Source: Magnetospirillum sp. SS-4
GTDB lineage: Bacteria > Pseudomonadota > Alphaproteobacteria > Rhodospirillales > Magnetospirillaceae
Assembly: GCF_902729425.1 (NCBI RefSeq)
Contig: NZ_CACVCH010000051.1
Coordinates: forward strand, 1-64,000
Direction of reading: 5' to 3'
DNA length: 64,000 nt
Each line of letters opens with the position of its first letter. The first letter of the stretch is position 1. The position numbers were made by a program, and so were the translations under genes. The notes below the pieces were generated by a model, which was not told where the DNA came from, made no database searches, and saw nothing but the letters and a program-made list of their open reading frames with translations. Positions 32,530-43,253 of the stretch are shown piece by piece.

Positions 32530-32958
32530 TCAGGCGGCGGCGGCGGCGCGGCGCAACCGCTTGATGAACAGCCAGTAGGTGCCGAGGATCGGACTGACCT
32601 TCAGGTGAAGGCGAACCTTGTAGGCCAGACCGGCGACGGCGCAGTCGAACACCACGTTCAGCGAGCCGGCGGCGACGCCCTTGCGGAACTCGCCGGCCAC
32701 CATGGAACCACCGGCCCAGCGGGCCACGTCGGCAAAGAAACCCCGCCCGACCACCGACGGGCGGGACTCGCCGGTCTCGTCGGGCTCGGTATCGTTATAG
32801 GCCAGGATCTTGCCGTCGGCGGCCAGTTCAAGCGCGCCGAACGGCAGCCGCGCCACCTCGTCCGCCGAAAGGCCGGCGAGCGGATTGTCGGCGTCGCCTG
32901 ACTCGAAAGCGAAAACCGTCATGTTCCACGGACCCGCCTGGGTCGTCACCGTAGGCAT
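32530..32958 (-). CDS. photoactive-yellow-protein-like PAS protein without chromophore Cys
   Basis: The 142-residue protein aligns by eye without gaps to photoactive yellow protein through its core: LPFGALELAADGKILAYND, FFADVAR, FRKGVAAGSLN and YWLFIKRL. The pocket Tyr42 and Glu46 equivalents are present as Tyr54 and Glu58, and Thr62 matches Thr50. The residue matching the p-coumarate-binding Cys69 is Trp81, and Arg52 is replaced by Glu64. It therefore cannot bind the thioester chromophore in the known way and is likely a ligand- or protein-sensing PAS. It is divergent from the che operon (87-base gap), suggesting a chemosensory role. There is no TM or signal peptide. Confidence 0.75.
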   Translation of the reverse strand: MPTVTTQAGPWNMTVFAFESGDADNPLAGLSADEVARLPFGALELAADGKILAYNDTEPDETGESRPSVVGRGFFADVARWAGGSMVAGEFRKGVAAGSLNVVFDCAVAGLAYKVRLHLKVSPILGTYWLFIKRLRRAAAAA

Positions 32959-33045
32959 ATGTGACTTTCCGATAGCCCCTTACTAAGGCCTGGAATTTGC
33001 CGTATTATCCGCGTGCGGTCCACTGGTAACTTCGCGTGACGGATT

Positions 33046-33348
33046 ATGGATCTGAGAGAAAGCAACGGCAGGATCGAGATCGACCTGCCCGTTTTGATTG
33101 ACCTGCCCGCCTCGGCCGAGCTGCGCGACCTGCTGCTCGACGCGCTGGCCCGCGACGCCGCCTCGGACGTGGTCCTGAAGGCCCAGGCGGTCGAACGCAT
33201 GTCCACCGCCTGCGTCCAGGTGGTGCTGGCCGCCGCCGTCGGGTTCAGGGGAGCCGCCCGCCGCATGGAGATTGAGGGCGCCGGCCCGGCCGTTACCGAA
33301 ACCTTCACGCAGCTCGGCCTCGCCGCCGAGCTTCAGAAACTGATCTGA
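33046..33348 (+). CDS. STAS-domain protein of the chemosensory operon
   Basis: The 100-residue single STAS domain resembles anti-sigma-factor antagonists: VLKAQAVERMSTACVQVVLAAA carries candidate phospho-acceptors Ser53/Thr54. It is first in the che operon, 15 bases before cheY. Such proteins are common in che clusters of this kind but their role is unclear. The ribosome site is weak. Confidence 0.8.
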   Translation: MDLRESNGRIEIDLPVLIDLPASAELRDLLLDALARDAASDVVLKAQAVERMSTACVQVVLAAAVGFRGAARRMEIEGAGPAVTETFTQLGLAAELQKLI

Positions 33349-33363
33349 CATAAGGACAATGGA

Positions 33364-33729
33364 ATGGGAAAGTGCGTACTGGCCGTCGATGATTCCAAGA
33401 CCATGCGCGACATGGTGTCCTTCACCTTGCGCGGCGCCGGCTACACCGTGGTCGAGGCCGACAACGGCGTCAATGCGTTGAAGGTGCTGCCCGGACAGAA
33501 GGTCGACGTCATCATCACCGACGTCAATATGCCGGAAATGGACGGCATCACCCTGGTGCGCAAGATCAGGGCCATGCCCCAGCACGCGGGAACCCCCGTC
33601 CTGATCCTGACCACCGAAAGCGACCAGTCGAAGAAGGACGAGGGCCGCTCCGCCGGCGCCACCGGCTGGATCGTCAAGCCGTTCAGCCCGGACAAGCTGT
33701 TGCAGATCGTCGCCAAGGTCTGTCCGTAG
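33364..33729 (+). CDS. cheY: chemotaxis response regulator CheY
   Basis: The 121-residue single receiver domain has the acidic pair Asp9/Asp10, phospho-acceptor Asp53 (IITDVNMPEMDG), Thr83 and Lys105 (WIVKPF). It would carry the signal from CheA to the flagellar motor or act as a phosphate sink. It lies between the STAS gene and cheA in one operon. Confidence 0.95.
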   Translation: MGKCVLAVDDSKTMRDMVSFTLRGAGYTVVEADNGVNALKVLPGQKVDVIITDVNMPEMDGITLVRKIRAMPQHAGTPVLILTTESDQSKKDEGRSAGATGWIVKPFSPDKLLQIVAKVCP

Positions 33730-33772: not shown

Positions 33773-35884
33773 ATGTCAGACGACCAGTCCTACGACCTGT
33801 CGCGTTTCAAGGCGACCTATTTCGAGGAATGCGCCGAACTGCTGGCGACGGCGGAGGAAACCATCGCCCGCCTCCAGGACGGCACCGGCAGCGCCGACGA
33901 CCTGAACGCCCTGTTCCGCTGCGTCCATTCCATCAAGGGCGGCGGCGGCGCCTTCGCCTTCGACGATCTCGTCCATTTCGCCCATGTGTTCGAGACCTCC
34001 ATGGACGCGCTGCGGTCGGGGCGGGCCGAACTGACCCCCCATGTGGCCGACATCCTGGTGCGCGGCAACGACACCCTGGGCGATTTCGTCCGCGCCGCCC
34101 AGGACGGCGTCACCCTGCCCGCCGATCACGGCAGCGAGGTCAAGGCGCATCTGGCCGCCATCATCAGCGGCGAGCCGGCGGCGCCCAAGGCCGCCGCTCC
34201 CGTTTCCGCCCCGCCGGCGGCGGCGGCGGGCTTCACCACCTGGACCATCCGCCTCGCCCCCGCACCCGGCATGCTGCGCACCGGCAACGATCCGCTGCTG
34301 ATGATCCGCGAACTGTCGGGGCTGGGCGAGATGAAGGTGGCGGCGGACCTGTCGCGCCTGCCCGCCCTGGCCGAGATGGACGCGCTGAACGCCTATCTGG
34401 CCTGGACCTTCACCCTGGTCACCGACAAGGGCAGGAACAGCATCGAGGAGGTGTTCGAGTTCGTCGCCGGCGATTCCGCCGATGTGACCATCGAGCAGAT
34501 CGGCAAGACGGTCGAGGCCGAGGATGGCGACGGCTGGGGCCTGTTCGCCCCCCTGCCCCCGGCTCCTGAGACCGCCCCCGCTCCTCCCGCCGCCGCCCCG
34601 GTCGCTGCCGCCCAGCCTCATCCCGCCGCCGCGAAGGGTGGCGGCGACGCCGGAGCCGCCGGCATCCACACCTCGTCCATCCGGGTCGATCTCGACCGGG
34701 TCGACCGTCTGGTCAACATGGTCGGCGAACTGGTCATCACCCAGGCCATGCTGGGCCAGCAGGCCAGCGGCTTTTCCATCGAATCCCATCCCGAGTTGGT
34801 CCAGGGCCTTCAGGAACTGTCGCACCACACCCGCGAGCTTCAGGAAAGCGTCATGGCGATTCGGGCGCAGCCGGTCAAGGCGCTGTTCTCCCGCGCGCCG
34901 CGCCTGGTCCGCGACCTGTCGGCCAAGCTGGGCAAGCAGGCCAAGCTGGTGATGAGCGGCGAGACCACCGAGGTGGACAAGACCGTCATCGAGCAATTGT
35001 CCGATCCGTTGACCCACCTGATCCGCAACTCGCTGGATCACGGCATCGAAATGCCGGAAGAGCGCATCGCCAACGGCAAGCCGGCCGAAGGAACCATCCA
35101 TCTGGCCGCCGAGCATCGTTCGGGCCGGGTCATCATCCAGGTGTCGGACGACGGCAAGGGCATCGACCGCAAGCGGGTGCTGGAAAAGGCGGTCGAGAAG
35201 GGGCTGGTGGAACGCGGCGCCCAGCTGACCGACGAACAGATCGACCAGATGATCTTCGCGCCCGGCTTTTCCACCGCCGCCCAGGTCTCGGACGTGTCGG
35301 GACGCGGCGTCGGCATGGACGTGGTCCGCCGCAACATCCAGGACGTCGGCGGCCGCGTCGTGGTGCAATCCACCCCCGGCCAGGGATCGCGCTTCATCTT
35401 GTCGCTGCCGCTGACGCTGGCGGTCATGGACGGCATGCTGGTGGCGGTCGGCAACCAGCGCTATGTCCTGCCGCTCACCAATATTGTCGAATCGCTGCGC
35501 CCGACACCGCAACAGGCCCGTACCCTGGTCAATGTCGGGGATGTCCTGACGCTGCGCGGCGACTATATCCGCCTGATCCGGCTCTATGATCTGTTCGGCA
35601 TCAGGAACGCCATCACCGAGACCACCCGCGGTCTGGTGGTTGTGGTGGAGACCGAGGGCGGCGACCGCATCGGCCTGCTGGTCGACGAATTGCTGGGCCA
35701 GCAGCAGGTGGTGATCAAAAGCCTGGATTCCAATTACCGGCCGGTCGAGGGCATCTCGGCCGCGACCATCCTGGGCGACGGCCGCGTCGCCCTGATCCTG
35801 GACGTCGGCGCGTTGCGCATCATGGGCGAGCGGCTGAACCGCGCCCAGGGCGAAGCCGCCATCGGCGCCCAGGCCGCCGAATAA
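33773..35884 (+). CDS. cheA: chemotaxis histidine kinase CheA
   Basis: The 703 residues contain P1/HPt with phospho-His52 (FRCVHSIKGGGGAF), a second adaptor-like region (about 158-260), a Pro/Ala-rich linker, the P3 dimerisation helices (SIRVDLDRVDRLVNMVGELV), the ATPase domain (LTHLIRNSLDHGIE, DDGKGID, GRGVGMDVV) and a CheW-like P5. It phosphorylates CheY and CheB under receptor control. All catalytic motifs are intact. It is co-transcribed with its neighbours. Confidence 0.96.
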   Translation: MSDDQSYDLSRFKATYFEECAELLATAEETIARLQDGTGSADDLNALFRCVHSIKGGGGAFAFDDLVHFAHVFETSMDALRSGRAELTPHVADILVRGNDTLGDFVRAAQDGVTLPADHGSEVKAHLAAIISGEPAAPKAAAPVSAPPAAAAGFTTWTIRLAPAPGMLRTGNDPLLMIRELSGLGEMKVAADLSRLPALAEMDALNAYLAWTFTLVTDKGRNSIEEVFEFVAGDSADVTIEQIGKTVEAEDGDGWGLFAPLPPAPETAPAPPAAAPVAAAQPHPAAAKGGGDAGAAGIHTSSIRVDLDRVDRLVNMVGELVITQAMLGQQASGFSIESHPELVQGLQELSHHTRELQESVMAIRAQPVKALFSRAPRLVRDLSAKLGKQAKLVMSGETTEVDKTVIEQLSDPLTHLIRNSLDHGIEMPEERIANGKPAEGTIHLAAEHRSGRVIIQVSDDGKGIDRKRVLEKAVEKGLVERGAQLTDEQIDQMIFAPGFSTAAQVSDVSGRGVGMDVVRRNIQDVGGRVVVQSTPGQGSRFILSLPLTLAVMDGMLVAVGNQRYVLPLTNIVESLRPTPQQARTLVNVGDVLTLRGDYIRLIRLYDLFGIRNAITETTRGLVVVVETEGGDRIGLLVDELLGQQQVVIKSLDSNYRPVEGISAATILGDGRVALILDVGALRIMGERLNRAQGEAAIGAQAAE

Positions 35885-35905: not shown

Positions 35906-36367
35906 GTGTCCGACAGCACCATCCGACAGTTCATCTCGTTCACCATCGGCGACGAGGAATACGGCGTCGACATCATGGCGATCCGCGAGATCAAGGGCTG
36001 GACCGAAACCACCGCCCTGCCCAACGCCCCGGCCCACATGCGCGGCGTCATCAACCTGCGCGGCACCATCGTGCCGATCCTGGATCTGCGCGCCCGCTTC
36101 GGCCGTGGCGTCACCGACGCCAGCGCCCGCCACGTCATCATGGTGGTGGCGGTGGGCAGCCGGGTCGCCGGCATCCTGGTGGACGCGGTCGCCGACATCC
36201 TGGCGGTAGCCGCCGAATCCATCCAGCCGGTTCCCGCCCTGGAACACGCGGAATCCGGCTTCCTCACCGGACTGGTGACGGTGGAGGGGCGCATGGTCGC
36301 CCTGCTCGACCTCACCCACATCTTCGCCTTCGACGAAATGGACGCCGCCACCGAAGCGGCGGCCTGA
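35906..36367 (+). CDS. cheW: chemotaxis adaptor CheW
   Basis: The 153-residue CheW fold links CheA to receptors. It has [21 protein letters not shown] at the start and the [18 protein letters not shown] segment. It begins with GTG (35906) after CAGGGAGAG. It lies 21 bases after cheA and 43 bases before the receptor gene. Confidence 0.95.
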
Positions 36368-36410
36368 CCACATTCTCTTTTGCCCGCATCGGGCAGATTT
36401 GGGGGACGAC

Positions 36411-38846
36411 ATGATCAACTGGATGGCGCACTACAGGGTTGGCAGCCGCATCTTCGCCGGCTTCATCCTCGTGCTGGCGCTGCTCTGCGTGCTGGCCTAC
36501 ACCGGCTGGCACTCGCTGACCGGCACCACCGACCGGACCAAGACCTATATTCTCCATGCCGAGCAAGTCGAGGGCATCCTGCGCATCCAGACCCAAGTCG
36601 CCGACATGCGCCGCAACGTGCAGGTGTTCGGCTTCACCGGCGCCGAGGCAGCCCACAAGCAGGTGACCGACATCGGCACCCCCCTGGTCGGAGCGATCAA
36701 GTCCCTGCGCGATACCTTCCAGTCCGAAACCCGCCGCGAGGCGCTGGGCAAGATGGTCAAGCTGGCCGAGAACTATCTGGCCGATTTCAACAAGATGCGC
36801 GAGCTGCGCCAGAAGCGCGACGCCGCCATAGCCAACATGCGCGCCGCCGGCGCCACCGCCTTGGAGGCGCTGGAAAAGGGGCAGAACGCGCTGACCGCCA
36901 GCAACGACCATGTCGAGGCCCTGCAATTCAGCGAAATCCAGGTGGAACTGGGCCAGGCCCGCATCTTCGCCAACATCTACCTCACCGCGCCAACCGCCGA
37001 AGGAGCCCAAAGGGTCTTGAAGACCATCGGCGGCACCAAGGCCGCCACCGAGACGGCCTTGGGCAAGGCCAGCATCCCGGCGGTCCAGGCGGCGCTGAAG
37101 GAGGCGCTTGCCGCCCTCGTCCGCTACGAGACCGATTTCACCGTCATGGTCAAGGACGTGGAGGCGGCCGAGGCTCTGGTCAACGGCGTCATGCCCAGGC
37201 TGGCCGCCGAGTTCGCCGACCTTGCCGCCGGCGTCGCCGCGGATCTCGAAGCCTCCATGATCAAGGAATCCGCCGAGAACGCCGCCGCCAACGAGGCCGC
37301 CATCCGAATGCTGCTTACCGTTACCGTGTTCGCGCTGGCGCTTGGCGTCCTGTTCGCCTGGATGATCGCCCGCGGCATCACCGTGCCGATCGGCGACATG
37401 ACCGGGGCCATGAACCGTCTGGCCGGCGGCGACAATTCCGTCCAGGTGCCCGCCTTGGGCAACAAGGACGAAATCGGCGAGATGGCCAAGGCGGTGCAGG
37501 TGTTCAAGCAGAACGCCATCGACAAGCTCCGCATGGAGGCCGAGCAGAGGGCGGCCGAGGAGGCCCAACGCAAGGCCGAGGAGGAGCAGAGGAAACGCGA
37601 GGCCGCCATCGTCGCCGAGGTGGCCGAGGTCGCCAAGGCCGCCAGCAACGGCGATCTCGACCGCCGCATCGATCTCGACGGCAAGAACGGCTTCCTGCTC
37701 AACCTGTGCGAGGGCGTCAACAATCTGGTCAACCTGACCGGCGTGGCGCTGAAGGACGTGGCCGGCGTGCTGGCCGCCGTCGCCCGCGGCGATCTCACCC
37801 GGCGCATCACCAACGATTATGCCGGCGTATTCGGCCAGTTGAAGGGGGACGTCAACCTGACCGCCGACAAGCTGTCGGAGGTCGTGGGCAACATCAACGA
37901 GGCCACCGGCCAGATCACCAGCGCCGCCTCCGAGGTCGCCGCCGGCAGCCAGGACCTGTCGGAACGCTCGGAGCAGCAGGCCTCGGCGCTGGAGGAAACC
38001 GCCGCCTCCATGGAGGAGCTGGCCGCCACCGTCCGCCAGAACTCGGCCAACGCCCAGCAGGCCAACCAGCTGGCGGCCGGCGCCCGCGAGATCGCCGCCG
38101 GCGGCGGCCAGGTGGTGTCCGACGCCATTACCGCCATGGGCCGCATCGAGGGCAGCTCGCAGAAGATCGAGGACATCGTCGGCATGATCGACGAGATCGC
38201 CTTCCAGACAAACCTGCTGGCGCTGAACGCGGCGGTGGAGGCGGCCAGGGCCGGCGACGCCGGCAAGGGCTTCGCCGTGGTGGCGCAGGAGGTAAGGAAC
38301 CTCGCCCAGCGCTCGGCCCAGGCCTCGAAGGAGATCAAGGGCCTGATCGCCGAAAGCTCGTCCCAGGTCCGCTCCGGCGCCGATCTGGTCAAGGGCGCTG
38401 GCAAGACCCTGGAGGATATCCTGGGATCGGTGAAGCGGGTCGCCGACATTGTCGCCGAGATCGCGGCGGCCTCGGCCGAACAGGCCTCGGGCATCGATCA
38501 GGTCAATTCCGCCATCACCCAGATGGACGAGATGACCCAGCAGAACGCCGCCCTGGTCGAGGAAAGCACGGCGGCCGCCCATTCGCTGGAGGAACAGGCC
38601 CGTCATCTGGGGCAGGTGATGGCCTTCTTCAACACCGGAACCGAAGCCGCCGCCCCGCCGGCGCCGGCGCGCGACAAGCCGGCCACCCGGCCGGCGGCCA
38701 AGGCCCCGCCGGCCCGGACAGCCGTCAAGAAGCCGCAGCAGGCCAATTCCCATCTGGCCAAACTGCACCACAAGACCGAGGCGGCCTCTCCCTCGCCTTC
38801 CGCCGCCAAGACCACCGGCGACGGCGAGGACTGGGCCGAGTTCTGA
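36411..38846 (+). CDS. methyl-accepting chemotaxis protein with tandem HAMP and CheR-docking tail
   Basis: The 811-residue receptor has TM1 (about 14-34), a ~265-residue helical periplasmic sensor, TM2 (about 299-323), a HAMP domain, a charged coiled linker (about 380-405), a second HAMP-like unit (about 410-480) and the signalling helix pair. The hairpin tip is [34 protein letters not shown] Pro/Ala-rich tether (about 745-800) ends in DWAEF, which fits the xWxxF pentapeptide that docks CheR/CheB. Ligand unknown. ATG 36411 follows GGGGGA; a TTG four codons earlier is unlikely. Confidence 0.93.
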
Positions 38847-38886: not shown

Positions 38887-38974
38887 ATTGCCCCGGTTCG
38901 TCATTGTCTGGTAGCACCAATCTGCTATGACATTAAACCGGTGGGAGGGATGTTCCCTCCAGGGTTCGGGATGG

Positions 38975-39829
38975 ATGGCCATCGCAGACAATCACGCCCA
39001 TCGGCACGAGTTCGACTTGGGAGACCGCGAGTTCCGCTTCCTGGCGACATTCCTGTCGCGGGAAACCGGCATCGTGCTGTCCGCCCACAAGCGCCAGATG
39101 GTATGCGGCCGGCTGGTGAAGCGGCTGCGCGCGCTCGGCATGCGCGACTTTTCCGAATATTGCGACATGCTGAACGGCCCCGGCGCCCATGCCGAGATCG
39201 AACACCTGGTCAACGCCATCACCACCAACATCACCAATTTTTTCCGCGAGCCGCATCATTTCGACCATCTGCGACGCGAGGTCCTGGAACCCCGCCTGAC
39301 CCAGATTCCCCGCCGTCCCCGCCTGCGCATCTGGTCGGCGGGCTGCTCGTCCGGCCAGGAGCCCTATTGCATCGCCATGATGGTGGCCGAGACCCTGAAG
39401 CCGCCGGAAGCCTGGGACGCCCTGATCCTCGCCACCGACATCGACACCAACATGCTGTCGCGGGGCGCCGCCGGCATCTACACCACCGAGACGGCCGAAC
39501 AGATCCCGGAAACCTACCGCAAGCGCTTCGTGCGCCGCATCGCCAACGATCCCGATCACGTCCAGATGGCCGACGAGTTGCGGCGGCTGATTCGCTTCAA
39601 GCGCCTCAACCTTCACGAGACATGGCCGATGAAGGGCTCGTTCGACGCCATTTTCTGTCGCAACGTCGCCATCTATTTCGACAAGCCGACACAAAGAAAT
39701 CTGTTCAACCGCTACGCCGACATGTTGGTCATAGGCGGAATGCTATACCTTGGTCATGCCGAATCGCTGATCGGCCTGACCGACCGTTTCGAGGTTTCCG
39801 ACAAGACTGTTTACAGGCGCATCCGATGA
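38975..39829 (+). CDS. cheR: chemotaxis protein methyltransferase CheR
   Basis: The 284-residue CheR methylates receptor glutamates. The N-terminal helical domain (FRFLATFLSRETGIVL) is followed by the SAM fold with RIWSAGCSSGQEPYCIAM, ATDIDTNML and FCRNVAIYF. ATG 38975 gives the family-typical start; an earlier in-frame ATG (38927) has no ribosome site. Its stop overlaps the cheD start (ATGA). Confidence 0.95.
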   Translation: MAIADNHAHRHEFDLGDREFRFLATFLSRETGIVLSAHKRQMVCGRLVKRLRALGMRDFSEYCDMLNGPGAHAEIEHLVNAITTNITNFFREPHHFDHLRREVLEPRLTQIPRRPRLRIWSAGCSSGQEPYCIAMMVAETLKPPEAWDALILATDIDTNMLSRGAAGIYTTETAEQIPETYRKRFVRRIANDPDHVQMADELRRLIRFKRLNLHETWPMKGSFDAIFCRNVAIYFDKPTQRNLFNRYADMLVIGGMLYLGHAESLIGLTDRFEVSDKTVYRRIR

Positions 39830-40464
39830 CCCAGGACCAGGTCTGGGGAGCCCAGGCGGACGAGGCAGAGCGCCGCCGCTGGTTCGACCCGACCTTCAAG
39901 ATCATGGCCGTCAAGGTCCTGCCGGGCGAGCATTACGTCTCGACCGCCGGGCAGGAAATGATCGTGACCGTGCTGGGCTCGTGCGTGTCCGCCTGCGTCT
40001 GGGAACCCCGTCTCAAGATCGGCGGCCTGAATCACTTCATGCTGCCGGAATCCAGCTCGAACGACCGGGCGCCGGTGGACAAGTCCATGCGCTACGGCAA
40101 CCACGCCATGGAAGAACTGATCAACGACCTGCTGCGGCGCGGCGCCCGGCGCGATTCCCTGGAAATCAAGGTGTTCGGCGGCGGCAACGTGGTCTCCAGC
40201 ATGAGCACGGGCGCCACCGTGCCCATCGGCGACCGCAATGCCGAATTCGTGCGGCGCTATCTGGACGACGAGGGGCTGCGCATCGCCGCCGCGGACCTGG
40301 GCGGCCAGCATCCGCGCCGCATCCATTTCTTTCCCCGCATCGGCAAGGTCATCCGCCTGTTCCTGAAGAAGGACGTGGAGCGCGCAGTGCTCAATCGCGA
40401 ACTCACCTACCGTTCCAAACTCAAGGACGTGCCGGTCGAAGGCGACGTCGAATTGTTCACCTGA
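39826..40464 (+). CDS. cheD: chemoreceptor glutamine deamidase CheD
   Basis: The 212-residue CheD deamidates receptor glutamines. The catalytic Cys lies in VTVLGSCVSACVWEP and the His in GGLNHFMLP; KVFGGGNVV and NAEFVRRYLDDEG complete the fold. It overlaps cheR by four bases and lies eight bases before cheB. Confidence 0.95.
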   Translation: MTQDQVWGAQADEAERRRWFDPTFKIMAVKVLPGEHYVSTAGQEMIVTVLGSCVSACVWEPRLKIGGLNHFMLPESSSNDRAPVDKSMRYGNHAMEELINDLLRRGARRDSLEIKVFGGGNVVSSMSTGATVPIGDRNAEFVRRYLDDEGLRIAAADLGGQHPRRIHFFPRIGKVIRLFLKKDVERAVLNRELTYRSKLKDVPVEGDVELFT

Positions 40465-40472
40465 GACCCGCC

Positions 40473-41513
40473 ATGGCGAAAATCCGTGTCCTCATCGTCG
40501 ACGATTCCGCCCTCATGCGTCAGGTGCTGTCGTCGATCCTGTCCTCCGATCCGGGCATCGAGGTGGTCGGCACCGCCCCCGATCCCCTGGTGGCGCGGGA
40601 AAAGATCAAGGCCCTCAATCCCGACGTGATGACCCTGGACGTCGAGATGCCGGGCATGGACGGCATCGCCTTCCTCGAAAAGGTGATGACGCTGCGCCCG
40701 ATGCCGGTGGTGATGGTCTCGTCGCTGACCGAAAAGGGCGCCGAGGTCACCGTGCGCGCCATGGAGCTGGGCGCGGTCGACGTGTTCTGCAAGCCGGCCG
40801 ACGCCGCCTCCGGCGGTTTTACCGCCCACGGGCCGGAACTGATCGAGAAGGTCAAGGCCGCCGCCGCCTCCAGGGTCAGGGCGCTGGTCAATCACGGCCG
40901 CCGCCCGGCGACGGCGCTGTCGGTGACCCAGATCTACAAATCCACCGACCGGCTGGTGGCCATCGGGTCCAGCACCGGCGGCGTCGAGGCGTTGCGCGAC
41001 ATCATCCTGGCCCTGCCCCCCGACGCGCCGCCCATCGTCGTCGCCCAGCACATTCCGCCGCGCTTCTCCACCAGCTTCGCCGAGCGACTGGACGGGCTGG
41101 CGGCGGTGCGGGTCAAGGAGGCCGCCGACGGCGAGCGCATCCTGGCCGGTCATGTCTATATCGCCCCCGGCGACCGCCATCTGATGGTGAAGCGCTCGGG
41201 CGCCGCCCTGATGACCCGGACCCATGACGGCCCGCTGGTGAGCGGCCACAAGCCCAGCGTCGACGTGCTGTTCCAATCGGTGGCCGATATCTGCGGCTCC
41301 AACGCGGTGGGGGTGATCCTGACCGGCATGGGCCGCGACGGCGCCGAGGGCTTGCTGTCCATGCGCCAGGCCGGGGCCGAGACCATCGGCCAGGACGAAT
41401 CCTCGTGCGTCGTCTACGGCATGCCCAAGGCCGCCAAGGATCTGGGGGGCGTGGCCCGCGAACTGGCGCTGCCCCGCATCGCCGACGAGATTCTGAGACT
41501 ATGCCGCGCATAG
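40473..41513 (+). CDS. cheB: chemotaxis methylesterase/deamidase CheB
   Basis: The 346-residue CheB has an N-terminal receiver (Asp10/Asp11, phospho-Asp56 in MTLDVEMPGMDG) and a C-terminal methylesterase with Ser in AIGSSTGGVEAL, His in VAQHIPPRFS and Asp in LTGMGRDGAEG. It removes methyl groups from receptors when phosphorylated by CheA. Confidence 0.96.
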   Translation: MAKIRVLIVDDSALMRQVLSSILSSDPGIEVVGTAPDPLVAREKIKALNPDVMTLDVEMPGMDGIAFLEKVMTLRPMPVVMVSSLTEKGAEVTVRAMELGAVDVFCKPADAASGGFTAHGPELIEKVKAAAASRVRALVNHGRRPATALSVTQIYKSTDRLVAIGSSTGGVEALRDIILALPPDAPPIVVAQHIPPRFSTSFAERLDGLAAVRVKEAADGERILAGHVYIAPGDRHLMVKRSGAALMTRTHDGPLVSGHKPSVDVLFQSVADICGSNAVGVILTGMGRDGAEGLLSMRQAGAETIGQDESSCVVYGMPKAAKDLGGVARELALPRIADEILRLCRA

Positions 41514-41595: not shown

Positions 41596-42105
41596 ATGAC
41601 CGAATACAGCGCCACCCAAGCCGACCTGCTGGAATTGCTCGCCCGCTGGCGGGCCTTCTCCGAATTGCAGCAGAACGCCTTCGCCTTCCTGGCGGCCGAG
41701 GCCATCGCCACCGGCCAGGAATTCGAGAATTCGACCGAGGGCGCGGCCGGCATTCTCAGCCGCATGGGCGACGCCTCGGTGGTTCTGGACCCGGCACAGA
41801 TTCAGGCCGAGACCTTCAGCGTGGTTCATCGCCTCCAGGCCGCCGACCGGTCGCGCCAGGGGCTGGAGCAGGTGGCGTCGGTGCTGGAGACCCTGCGCCG
41901 CCTGGAAGCCGAACTGGCTGAACGCGGCGGCGGCGACCTCGCCCTGCCCGACGTCACCCCCACCGCCACCGAATGGATCGACCAGTTGGGCGAATGCGTG
42001 ACCCTGGCCGACTGGCGCAAGCGCTTCAACGAGGCCCTGCACGGCCGCGACCCCGGCCCGCGCAACCCGGCCCCGGCCGACGACGGCGACGACGAATTGT
42101 TCTGA
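41596..42105 (+). CDS. hypothetical helical protein in the chemosensory operon
   Basis: The 169-residue protein is predicted mostly helical (DLLELLARWRAFSELQQNAFAFLAAEAIATGQEFE; VLETLRRLEAELAERG), with a Pro-rich acidic tail ending DDGDDELF. The length and an acidic C-terminal tail loosely recall CheY-phosphatases such as CheZ, but no CheZ catalytic motif is seen. It is coupled to the ParA-like gene by TGATG. Its position after cheB points to chemosensory signalling or array placement. ATG 41596 lies within a poorly marked start. Confidence 0.6.
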   Translation: MTEYSATQADLLELLARWRAFSELQQNAFAFLAAEAIATGQEFENSTEGAAGILSRMGDASVVLDPAQIQAETFSVVHRLQAADRSRQGLEQVASVLETLRRLEAELAERGGGDLALPDVTPTATEWIDQLGECVTLADWRKRFNEALHGRDPGPRNPAPADDGDDELF

Positions 42106-43253
42106 TGCCGCCCCCGCCCACCCCCCGGCCGCCGGTCATGGTGGCGGTGTTCAATCAGAAGGGCGGGGTCGCCAAGACCACCACGTCATGCAATCTGGCG
42201 GTCTGCCTGAGGGCGTTCGGGTATCACGTCCTGCTGGTTGACCTGGATACCCAGGGCAACGCCACCGGCAGCTTCGGCTTCACGCCGCTGCCCGCCACCG
42301 GTTCGTTCGAGGTGATCACCGGTCGCGCCAAGGCCGCCGACATCGCCCTCGACACCCCCTATCCCGGCCTGTGGCTGCTGCCCGCCACCACCAGCCTGCG
42401 CGACGACACCCACATGCTGGCCCATGCCGGCCGGCGGCGAGGACTGCTGGAAGCCCGCCTCGCCGATACCGGCGTCGACGTGGTGATCGTCGATTGCCCG
42501 CCCGCCCTGGCCGCCGCCACCGCCACCGCCCTGGCCTCGGCCTCGGTGGTGCTGCTGCCGGTCCGCCCCGACCCCTTCGCCCATGAAGGGCTGGTCAACA
42601 CCTGGTACGAGATCAAGCGGTTCCGCGAGACCATCAACGGCCGCCTGGGCGTCGCCGGAATCTTGATGACCATGTCGGGCTCGGAGCCGGCCGGCGACGA
42701 CGTCGCCCGCGTCATCCGCGCCGAATTCGGCGACCATGTCTACGCCACCGAGATCGCCACCGATCCCAAGGTGGCCGAAGCGGCGGGAATGGCGCTGCCG
42801 GTGGCGGTGCTCGACCCCGACGGCCCCGCCGGCCGCGCCTATGTCGACGCCACCCGCGAACTTCTGTTCCGTCTGGCCCGCCACGAACGTCCCGACCTTC
42901 TCCTGCCCGAGCCGCTGGCGGTGGAAACCGCCCTCAACCAATTGCGGGAATGGCGCGCCACCACCCATGCCGCCCTGCTGCGCGTTCCCGGCCGGGGCGA
43001 CGGCTGGGCCGGAACCGGAGCGGACGGACACGAGGATGCGGACACGGTTCCGGACGATTATTTCGGCCCGGTCCCCGCCACCGATCCATCGCCGCCGCCG
43101 CCGCGTCCGGGCCTCGGCCGGATGGCCGCCGCCCTGCTGGCCGGGCTGCTGGCGGGCATGGCGATCGAGGCCGGAACCGGAATCCTGTCGGGAATTCTTG
43201 GCCGGAGCGCGGGGGACGCGGCCGTCAGATATACTGGCCCGAATCCACCTTGA
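42105..43253 (+). CDS. ParA/MinD-family ATPase in the che operon, with hydrophobic C-terminus
   Basis: The 382-residue protein has the deviant Walker A FNQKGGVAKTTTS (signature Lys19, Lys24), LLVDLDTQGNATG and VIVDCPP, as in ParA. ParA homologues in che clusters (PpfA, ParC) position chemosensory arrays or cytoplasmic clusters. Unusually it carries a ~65-residue Pro/Asp-rich linker and then a hydrophobic Ala/Leu/Gly segment (about 340-366) that could be a membrane helix. Its 3' end overlaps the opposite-strand SDR gene by 29 bases. Confidence 0.85.
   Translation: MPPPPTPRPPVMVAVFNQKGGVAKTTTSCNLAVCLRAFGYHVLLVDLDTQGNATGSFGFTPLPATGSFEVITGRAKAADIALDTPYPGLWLLPATTSLRDDTHMLAHAGRRRGLLEARLADTGVDVVIVDCPPALAAATATALASASVVLLPVRPDPFAHEGLVNTWYEIKRFRETINGRLGVAGILMTMSGSEPAGDDVARVIRAEFGDHVYATEIATDPKVAEAAGMALPVAVLDPDGPAGRAYVDATRELLFRLARHERPDLLLPEPLAVETALNQLREWRATTHAALLRVPGRGDGWAGTGADGHEDADTVPDDYFGPVPATDPSPPPPRPGLGRMAAALLAGLLAGMAIEAGTGILSGILGRSAGDAAVRYTGPNPP

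Follow-up and report, generated by a model that had tools for sequence, protein, structure and literature searches.

The window, by which is meant the whole stretch of 64,000 nucleotides from Magnetospirillum sp. SS-4 that was analysed, carries a gene for a PYP-like protein (PYPL) that begins with an ATG start codon and is divergent from the gene cluster STAS-cheY-cheA-cheW-mcp-cheR-cheB (Table 1), so that the first-pass annotation, which was made from the sequence alone and placed the gene opposite a full che operon, was correct on this point. PYP is a textbook photoreceptor, and to our knowledge the signalling partners of PYPs are mostly unknown. A short element lies between the two divergent starts, and downstream of cheB follow an ORF of 127 aa and a gene for a ParA/MinD-like ATPase, possibly an array-positioning partner.

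Table 1. Features of the PYPL locus in positions of the window; residues in brackets are the equivalents in H. halophila PYP.
Feature	Position	Strand	Evidence or conservation
PYPL, PYP-like single-domain PAS protein, 142 aa	32530..32958	(-)	ORF, TIGR02373, AF2, 24 orthologues
Codon of Cys106 (Tyr94)	32641..32643	(-)	Cys in 24/24 orthologues, 0/32 other PYP homologues
Codon of Trp81 (position of the chromophore Cys69)	32716..32718	(-)	Trp in 24/24 orthologues, 0/32 other PYP homologues
Codon of Glu58 (Glu46)	32785..32787	(-)	Glu in 24/24 orthologues
Codon of Tyr54 (Tyr42)	32797..32799	(-)	Tyr in 22, His in 2 of 24 orthologues
29-bp element TGGACC-N7-GATAATACGNCAAATT, putative promoter/operator common to PYPL and the che genes	32994..33022	(-)	
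STAS-domain protein, heading the che operon	33046..33348	(+)	PF13466, E=3.6e-12
CheY-like response regulator	33364..33729	(+)	PF00072, E=5.8e-30
CheA kinase	33773..35884	(+)	Hpt, H-kinase_dim, HATPase_c and CheW domains
CheW	35906..36367	(+)	PF01584, E=9.7e-39
Chemoreceptor with helical-bundle (HBM) sensor region, two HAMP-type matches (HAMP, HAMP_2) and an MCP signalling domain; PAS not matched	36399..38846	(+)	
CheR	38927..39829	(+)	PF01739, E=3.5e-63
CheB	40380..41513	(+)	NF001965, 444.7 bits (cut-off 293); PF01339
ORF of 127 aa	41538..41921		no NCBIfam match
ParA/MinD-like ATPase	41973..43253		

PYPL matches the NCBIfam model TIGR02373 (photo_yellow) over residues 16-135 (E=1.3e-23), with a score of 83.4 bits that lies below the curated cut-off of 143.05, and a Pfam scan of the protein gave zero matches at E<=0.1. 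A sequence search of the PDB gave 33 matches, each of them to PYP, FAST or Ppr, the best at E=2.1e-23. Structure prediction, which the first-pass annotation had suggested as a check, yielded a PYP fold: the AF2 model, built from the window protein and 16 orthologues, has a pLDDT of 88.4 and a pTM of 0.84, and a Foldseek search with it placed PYP entries at the top (E=2.9e-9), with ranks 1-41 held by PYP, FAST or Ppr. The core of the model fits PYP without residues 1-25 (1odv) at a TMt of 0.76. The full-length superposition on PYP is poor (rmsd ~11 Å), and the model has a predicted N-terminal β hairpin with strands at residues 3-8 and 11-18. As for the residues by which PYPs are recognised, Tyr42 and Glu46 are both found in the window protein, and Cys69, which Xing et al. 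(2022) take as the mark of membership, is Trp throughout the PYPL clade (24/24). A spurious or chance ORF in GC-rich DNA is ruled out by the 24 orthologues, which include the window protein and share an identity of at least 43%, together with a dN/dS of 0.24.

The alignment of the window protein to H. halophila PYP is gap-free from residue 1 through 96 and pairs Tyr54 with Tyr42, Glu58 with Glu46, Thr62 with Thr50 and Trp81 with Cys69. The first-pass annotation had reported these pairs, and the replacement of the attachment Cys by Trp proved to extend to every orthologue. The match of Tyr54, Glu58 and Thr62 holds for the window protein but only in part for the clade, as Tyr42 is kept in 22/24 orthologues and Thr50 in 1/24, namely the window protein itself. 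A misalignment hiding Cys69 is ruled out, as the window protein has no gap near residue 69; moreover, the Trp stands at a constant distance after an FF motif in 24/24 orthologues, one of which (G130) is gapped just after it. In a comparison set of 32 other PYP homologues, of which 14 are near to and include H. halophila PYP and 18 are more distant (L159, a duplicate of L094, was removed before counting), 30 have Cys and two have Ser at position 69, and at position 94 there are 28 with Tyr, three with Phe and one with Val.

Nine pocket residues of PYP have been published, and their retention among the orthologues is uneven: Glu46 and Phe62 are kept in 24/24, Ala67 in 23/24 and Tyr42 in 22/24, followed by Val66 (18/24), Pro68 (9/24) and Ile31 (2/24), and Cys69 and Phe96 are found in 0/24. 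Arg52 and Met100 are likewise kept in 0/24 orthologues, PYP positions 97-98 are deleted, and Gly29 and Trp119 of PYP are present in 24/24. The claim that the photoactive pocket was kept is hence correct for Glu46, Phe62, Ala67 and most of Tyr42, but not for Cys69, Phe96 and Ile31; as judged from the alignment, the pocket is only partly kept, with the phenol-holding end retained and the tail end rebuilt. Overall, PYPL is like PYP (TIGR02373; H. halophila, PDB 2phy) in its one-domain PAS fold, for which PYP is the best PDB match by both sequence and fold, and in the invariant or nearly invariant residues just named, and it is unlike PYP in the Trp at Cys69, the Cys at Tyr94, the lack of Phe96 and of positions 97-98, 12 extra N-terminal residues and a score short of the TIGR02373 cut-off.

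Cys106, which stands where PYP has Tyr94, is the sole Cys of the window protein, and its equivalent is the sole Cys in 20/24 orthologues. Tyr94 in PYP is highly conserved and functionally sensitive (PMC12826048), and in FAST complexes the side chain of residue 94 bonds the imidazolone end of the ligand, with Tyr42 and Glu46 bonding its phenol (PMC9287381). By homology, the side chain of Cys106 is expected to point toward the cavity and Trp81 to lie within it, so we infer that the thiol of the clade sits at another side of the ligand tail than in other PYPs. The first-pass annotation, for which a Cys elsewhere in the pocket was to count against its reading, had overlooked Cys106; this objection half applies, because Cys106 is invariant and the ligand of FAST is touched by residue 94 (PMC9287381). 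Outside the pocket, two motifs are invariant in the clade, the N-terminal GPW(N/H)M, the invariance of which is to be read within the clade as the 32 comparison rows start at PYP residue 1, and SPI in the last hairpin, the letters of which occur singly in 6, 6 and 3 of the 32 other homologues. Altogether, 44 alignment columns hold one residue in at least 23/24 orthologues.

The Trp69 gene was found in 24 of the 55 genomes of the window's family and in 8/17 of its genus. Among the 16 hosts with named records, 11 are Magnetospirillum, Paramagnetospirillum or Phaeospirillum and the other five are MAGs under other labels; the hosts include P. marisnigri SP-1 and M. (Phaeospirillum) fulvum and molischianum, and G121 is presumably M. 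gryphiswaldense MSR-1. Outside the family, Trp69 was seen in none of the aligned PYP homologues from the order (317 genomes), from samples of the class (385 genomes), the phylum (398 genomes) and the class of G962 (312 genomes), or from plasmids. These alignments leave aside weak partial PAS matches (12 of which form the outgroup used below), the hits in G039 and G205 and second copies in G576 and G660, and for plasmids they take in 8/10 records of one search, one place each. Two family members, G113 (L027) and G104 (L028), have Cys69 homologues that are unlinked to PYPL's che operon, and that of G104 has Phe at 42 and Val at 94. In two genomes of one genus of the class, PYP domains in frames of ~900 aa (L144, L145) have Ser at 69 and Ala at 46 and form a second, separate Cys-less group.

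A phylogeny of PYP-like proteins, also put forward in the first-pass annotation, recovers the Trp69 clade as a single group (support 100/100) on a stem branch of 1.18 changes per column. When the tree is rooted with 12 PAS domains (14/24 clade rows, the first 12 residues cut and the candidate L101 left out), the other PYPs do not all fall together opposite the clade in the best tree, but a grouping of them all is not rejected (AU p=0.135). Of the earlier statement that PYPL lost the chromophore Cys, the absence of Cys69 stands in 24/24 orthologues, but loss and original absence are both compatible with the AU result; the retained Tyr42 and Glu46 argue for loss of Cys69 over its never having been gained. 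The reading frame is open in 24/24 orthologues, and the median dN/dS is 0.24 with a maximum of 0.60 over 239/276 orthologue pairs, the 37 pairs without 0<dS<2 having been dropped. By this measure of substitution the PYPL clade is under purifying selection.

Linkage to che genes in related genomes, which the first-pass annotation had made the test of its proposal, was found without exception. In 24/24 loci, STAS and then cheY lie divergently beside PYPL, and the STAS protein accompanies the che operon in every one of them. cheA is on PYPL's contig in 22/24, the contigs of the remaining two (G136 and G126) ending just after cheY, and cheW, the chemoreceptor, cheR and cheB come next wherever the stretch is long enough. 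Across the family, STAS is present in 27/55 genomes, namely the 24 with PYPL as well as G112, G114 and G115, so that PYPL occurs in 24/27 genomes with STAS and in 0/28 without it, G104 and G113 among the latter. A CheA orthologue (E<=1e-150) was found in 26/55 genomes, that is, 23/24 PYPL genomes and again G112, G114 and G115; the PYPL genome outside this count is G110, in which the end of the contig truncates the copy. The linkage seems to be particular to the che genes, because the genes that flank PYPL on its other side in the window (MTase, 4HBT and AbH3) are matched in 0/28 loci compared, which comprise those of the 23 other PYPL genomes (three represented twice) and of two genomes without PYPL, some of these loci being short.

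The three genomes with STAS and without PYPL differ in layout. In G112, a weaker STAS and CheA lie on different contigs in a different arrangement. In G114 (L122) and G115 (L121), which belong to one genus, the operon is present and a receptor of 880 residues stands directly before STAS; that of G114, the only one of the two scanned, has three PAS stretches, so that the replacement by a PAS receptor counts as a single case. No PAS match was obtained for the operon receptor in the 11/24 genomes scanned, including the window, and the orthologues among these (10 scanned of 23) all have HAMP, HAMP_2 and MCPsignal, with an N-terminal region that matches HBM, 4HB or neither. Pfam finds two HAMP domains in the operon receptor, which has space for one more, and its best NCBIfam match is Aer2, below the cut-off. 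Going by the HAMP-rich receptor and the Aer2 match, the operon is perhaps a candidate for che class F7, the type of A. brasilense Che4 and M. gryphiswaldense cheOp4, which is marked by a 36-heptad receptor with several HAMP domains; an F7 receptor of Azospirillum has been described (PMC6759762).

The 29-bp element between the divergent starts is found with <=2 mismatches in 23/24 loci and is degenerate in G101. At <=3 mismatches, it occurs once, at the PYPL locus, in 8/8 genus genomes with the gene and is absent from 9/9 without it; hence no further site that would indicate a regulon was detected in the 17 genomes, and a reversed control pattern gave 0. The operon stretches of G114 and G115 lack the element (at least 6 mismatches), and a sigma-70 scan found nothing. 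The linkage of PYPL to the che operon could also reflect a promoter shared with an otherwise unrelated gene.

Precedents exist for PYP-fold and soluble PAS proteins in chemotaxis. PYPL is a one-domain PAS protein encoded beside a chemoreceptor without PAS and in this resembles CetB-CetA of C. jejuni and CetB2-CetA2 of M. gryphiswaldense (PMC12442639), the latter from the same host group, in which the soluble PAS protein CetB2 regulates the oxygen response with the receptor CetA2 through FAD (PMC12442639). The likeness has limits: the gene for PYPL's candidate receptor comes fifth in the divergent operon instead of adjoining that of PYPL, CetB2 is an FAD-binding PAS protein (PMC12442639) whereas PYPL has the PYP fold without a known cofactor, and the operon receptor in the window carries a sensor region itself and therefore need not require a partner in trans. 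PYPs of Leptospira adjoin sensor-less chemoreceptors and have been proposed to work in trans in the same manner (PMC9664959). Ppr of Rhodocista (Rhodospirillum) centenaria is another PYP-domain protein tied to chemotaxis, but is a multidomain fusion that contacts CheW through its kinase domain (PMC2993699). The Cys69-substituted PYPs and the PYP_like branch of Xing et al. (2022; PMC9664959) share with PYPL the missing attachment Cys and a presumed new function; the group treated there in detail comprises the PYP domains found in Ppr kinases of methylobacteria, a few of them Y42C/S50C variants (PMC9664959), from which PYPL, which has a single domain, W69/C94 and a che operon next to it, is set apart by the main-text description. 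Finally, FAST and nanoFAST have a PYP fold without Cys69 and with residue 94 replaced, and FAST is the best phmmer match of PYPL, but these are engineered, bind dyes non-covalently and carry Gly at 69 and Trp at 94 where PYPL has Trp and Cys.

With moderate confidence we take PYPL for a soluble sensor or adaptor that consists of a single PAS domain of PYP type, does without thioester-bound p-coumarate, whether it once used it or never did, and provides input to the adjacent che system. The observed basis at the level of sequence is the Trp69/Cys94 pair fixed in the clade, purifying selection, strict linkage and a locus-specific element. The parts of this reading differ in strength: PYPL is very probably not a p-coumarate photoreceptor and is likely a member of the adjacent che module, and the more specific role of a trans PAS input to the chemoreceptor or kinase, for which it is taken because of the CetB2-CetA2, Leptospira PYP and Ppr precedents, is a tentative assignment with somewhat under an even chance. 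More generally, PYPL is probably a sensor for swimming control that does not use the usual pigment. The first-pass annotation had seen in it a possible PYP-derived sensor that tunes chemotaxis, which is the best reading because the protein lacks Cys69, is fixed in the clade and is tied to one che operon, although loss of the Cys is one possibility beside its original absence.

Mechanistically, Trp81 would fill or line the place of the p-coumaroyl tail, and the pocket may be occupied by the protein itself or by a small non-covalent ligand held between Tyr54/Glu58 and Cys106. The signal would then be the state of Cys106 or such a ligand, and a change in the pocket, by oxidation or modification of Cys106 or by ligand binding, could alter the surface that bears GPW(N/H)M and SPI, two motifs that form a possible partner surface. 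By this route PYPL may act in trans on the PAS-less operon chemoreceptor, or on CheW/CheA, in the manner of CetB on CetA. Because of the lifestyle of the spirilla, redox or energy state is more likely as the signal than blue light.

Several other explanations deserve to be weighed against a PAS input of this kind. PYPL could be a redox or electrophile switch, with oxidation or nitrosylation of the pocket Cys106, or its pairing across two monomers, informing the che cluster of the redox state of the cell. Redox sensing was proposed by Xing et al. for methylobacterial PYPs without Cys69 and with new pocket cysteines (PMC9664959), and two of the che operons in M. gryphiswaldense have a part in aerotaxis (PMC12442639), of which the operon beside PYPL may or may not be one; Cys106 is moreover invariant and, in most orthologues, the sole Cys. 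However, a second conserved Cys is absent and an invariant buried Cys may be structural, which leaves a switch of this type rather doubtful. A ligand-free scaffold, with Trp81 plugging the cavity and the domain binding partners only, for instance in the placing or assembly of the receptor-CheA array or in joint work with the STAS protein, appears comparably doubtful: a large aromatic residue at the tail site in 24/24 orthologues, the invariant motifs outside the pocket and the predicted N-terminal hairpin, with a core that fits PYP (TMt 0.76) in a model that superposes poorly at full length (~11 Å), would suit it, but a plugged domain does not obviously need Glu46, Phe62, Ala67 and, in most members, Tyr42.

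That the pocket thiol has moved from 69 to 94, so that Cys106 carries a different covalent group or serves as a redox switch feeding the che cluster of these magnetic and purple spirilla, is unlikely on the present evidence; were it true, PYPL would be, within the literature searched, the first PYP-fold chemotaxis sensor that does not use light. Distinct from this is a photoreceptor that kept its chromophore, with p-coumarate or another phenolic acid on Cys106 or unbonded and its phenol gripped by Tyr54 and Glu58. FAST, a Cys69-less PYP that binds phenolic dyes, means that a missing Cys69 does not exclude a phenolic chromophore, and residue 94 of FAST bonds the ligand end away from the phenol (PMC9287381), where all 24 orthologues have Cys; Glu46 and Phe62, kept in 24/24, and Tyr42, kept in 22/24, point the same way. 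Nevertheless, such a photoreceptor is quite improbable, as Trp at 69 would occupy the space of the tail, Phe96, Arg52 and Met100 are kept in 0/24 and Thr50 in 1/24, positions 97-98 are deleted and two orthologues have His at 42. None of the 24 PYPL genomes has an aromatic amino acid lyase (PF00221), which is weak evidence against p-coumarate because 53/55 family genomes lack it, including G104 with its Cys69 homologue, and because tyrosine ammonia lyase is found in only 5% of pyp operons (PMC12826048); PF00221 is present in G113 and G133, the former being the one family genome whose PYP passes the TIGR02373 cut-off. A decaying PYP on its way to loss, which stays next to the che operon for no other reason than a common promoter, might account for the long stem branch (1.18 changes per column) and the joint absence of gene and STAS from 28/55 genomes, but is exceedingly improbable given a frame open in 24/24, a median dN/dS of 0.24 with a maximum of 0.60 and 44 columns with a single residue in at least 23/24 orthologues.

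PYPs with a substituted Cys69 have been reported in clades A and B and in the PYP_like branch, and for those of methylobacteria a shift to redox sensing was proposed (Xing et al., 2022; PMC9664959), hence the earlier description of PYPL as an unrecognised sensory class is too strong. The main text of that study contains no word beginning Magnetospirill, nor does PMC12826048, which analysed Cys69-bearing homologues, and neither the Trp69/Cys94 clade nor its che linkage is described among the matches listed in the literature searched, with subscription papers and supplements outside its range. A survey from 2019 counts the PYPs of MSR-1, SP-1, BB-1 and Phaeospirillum as photoreceptors (PMC6532209). 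In SP-1, two strains of P. fulvum and P. molischianum, the sole TIGR02373 match (E<=0.001) is the Trp69 protein, so light sensing by this protein is not to be taken for granted. The observation on PYPL is real and stronger than the first-pass annotation had stated, and its role in chemotaxis is a testable proposal: because this PYP without the chromophore Cys is fixed and tied to an operon, it points to the receptor, CheW, CheA and the STAS protein as candidate partners, in hosts that are open to genetic manipulation.
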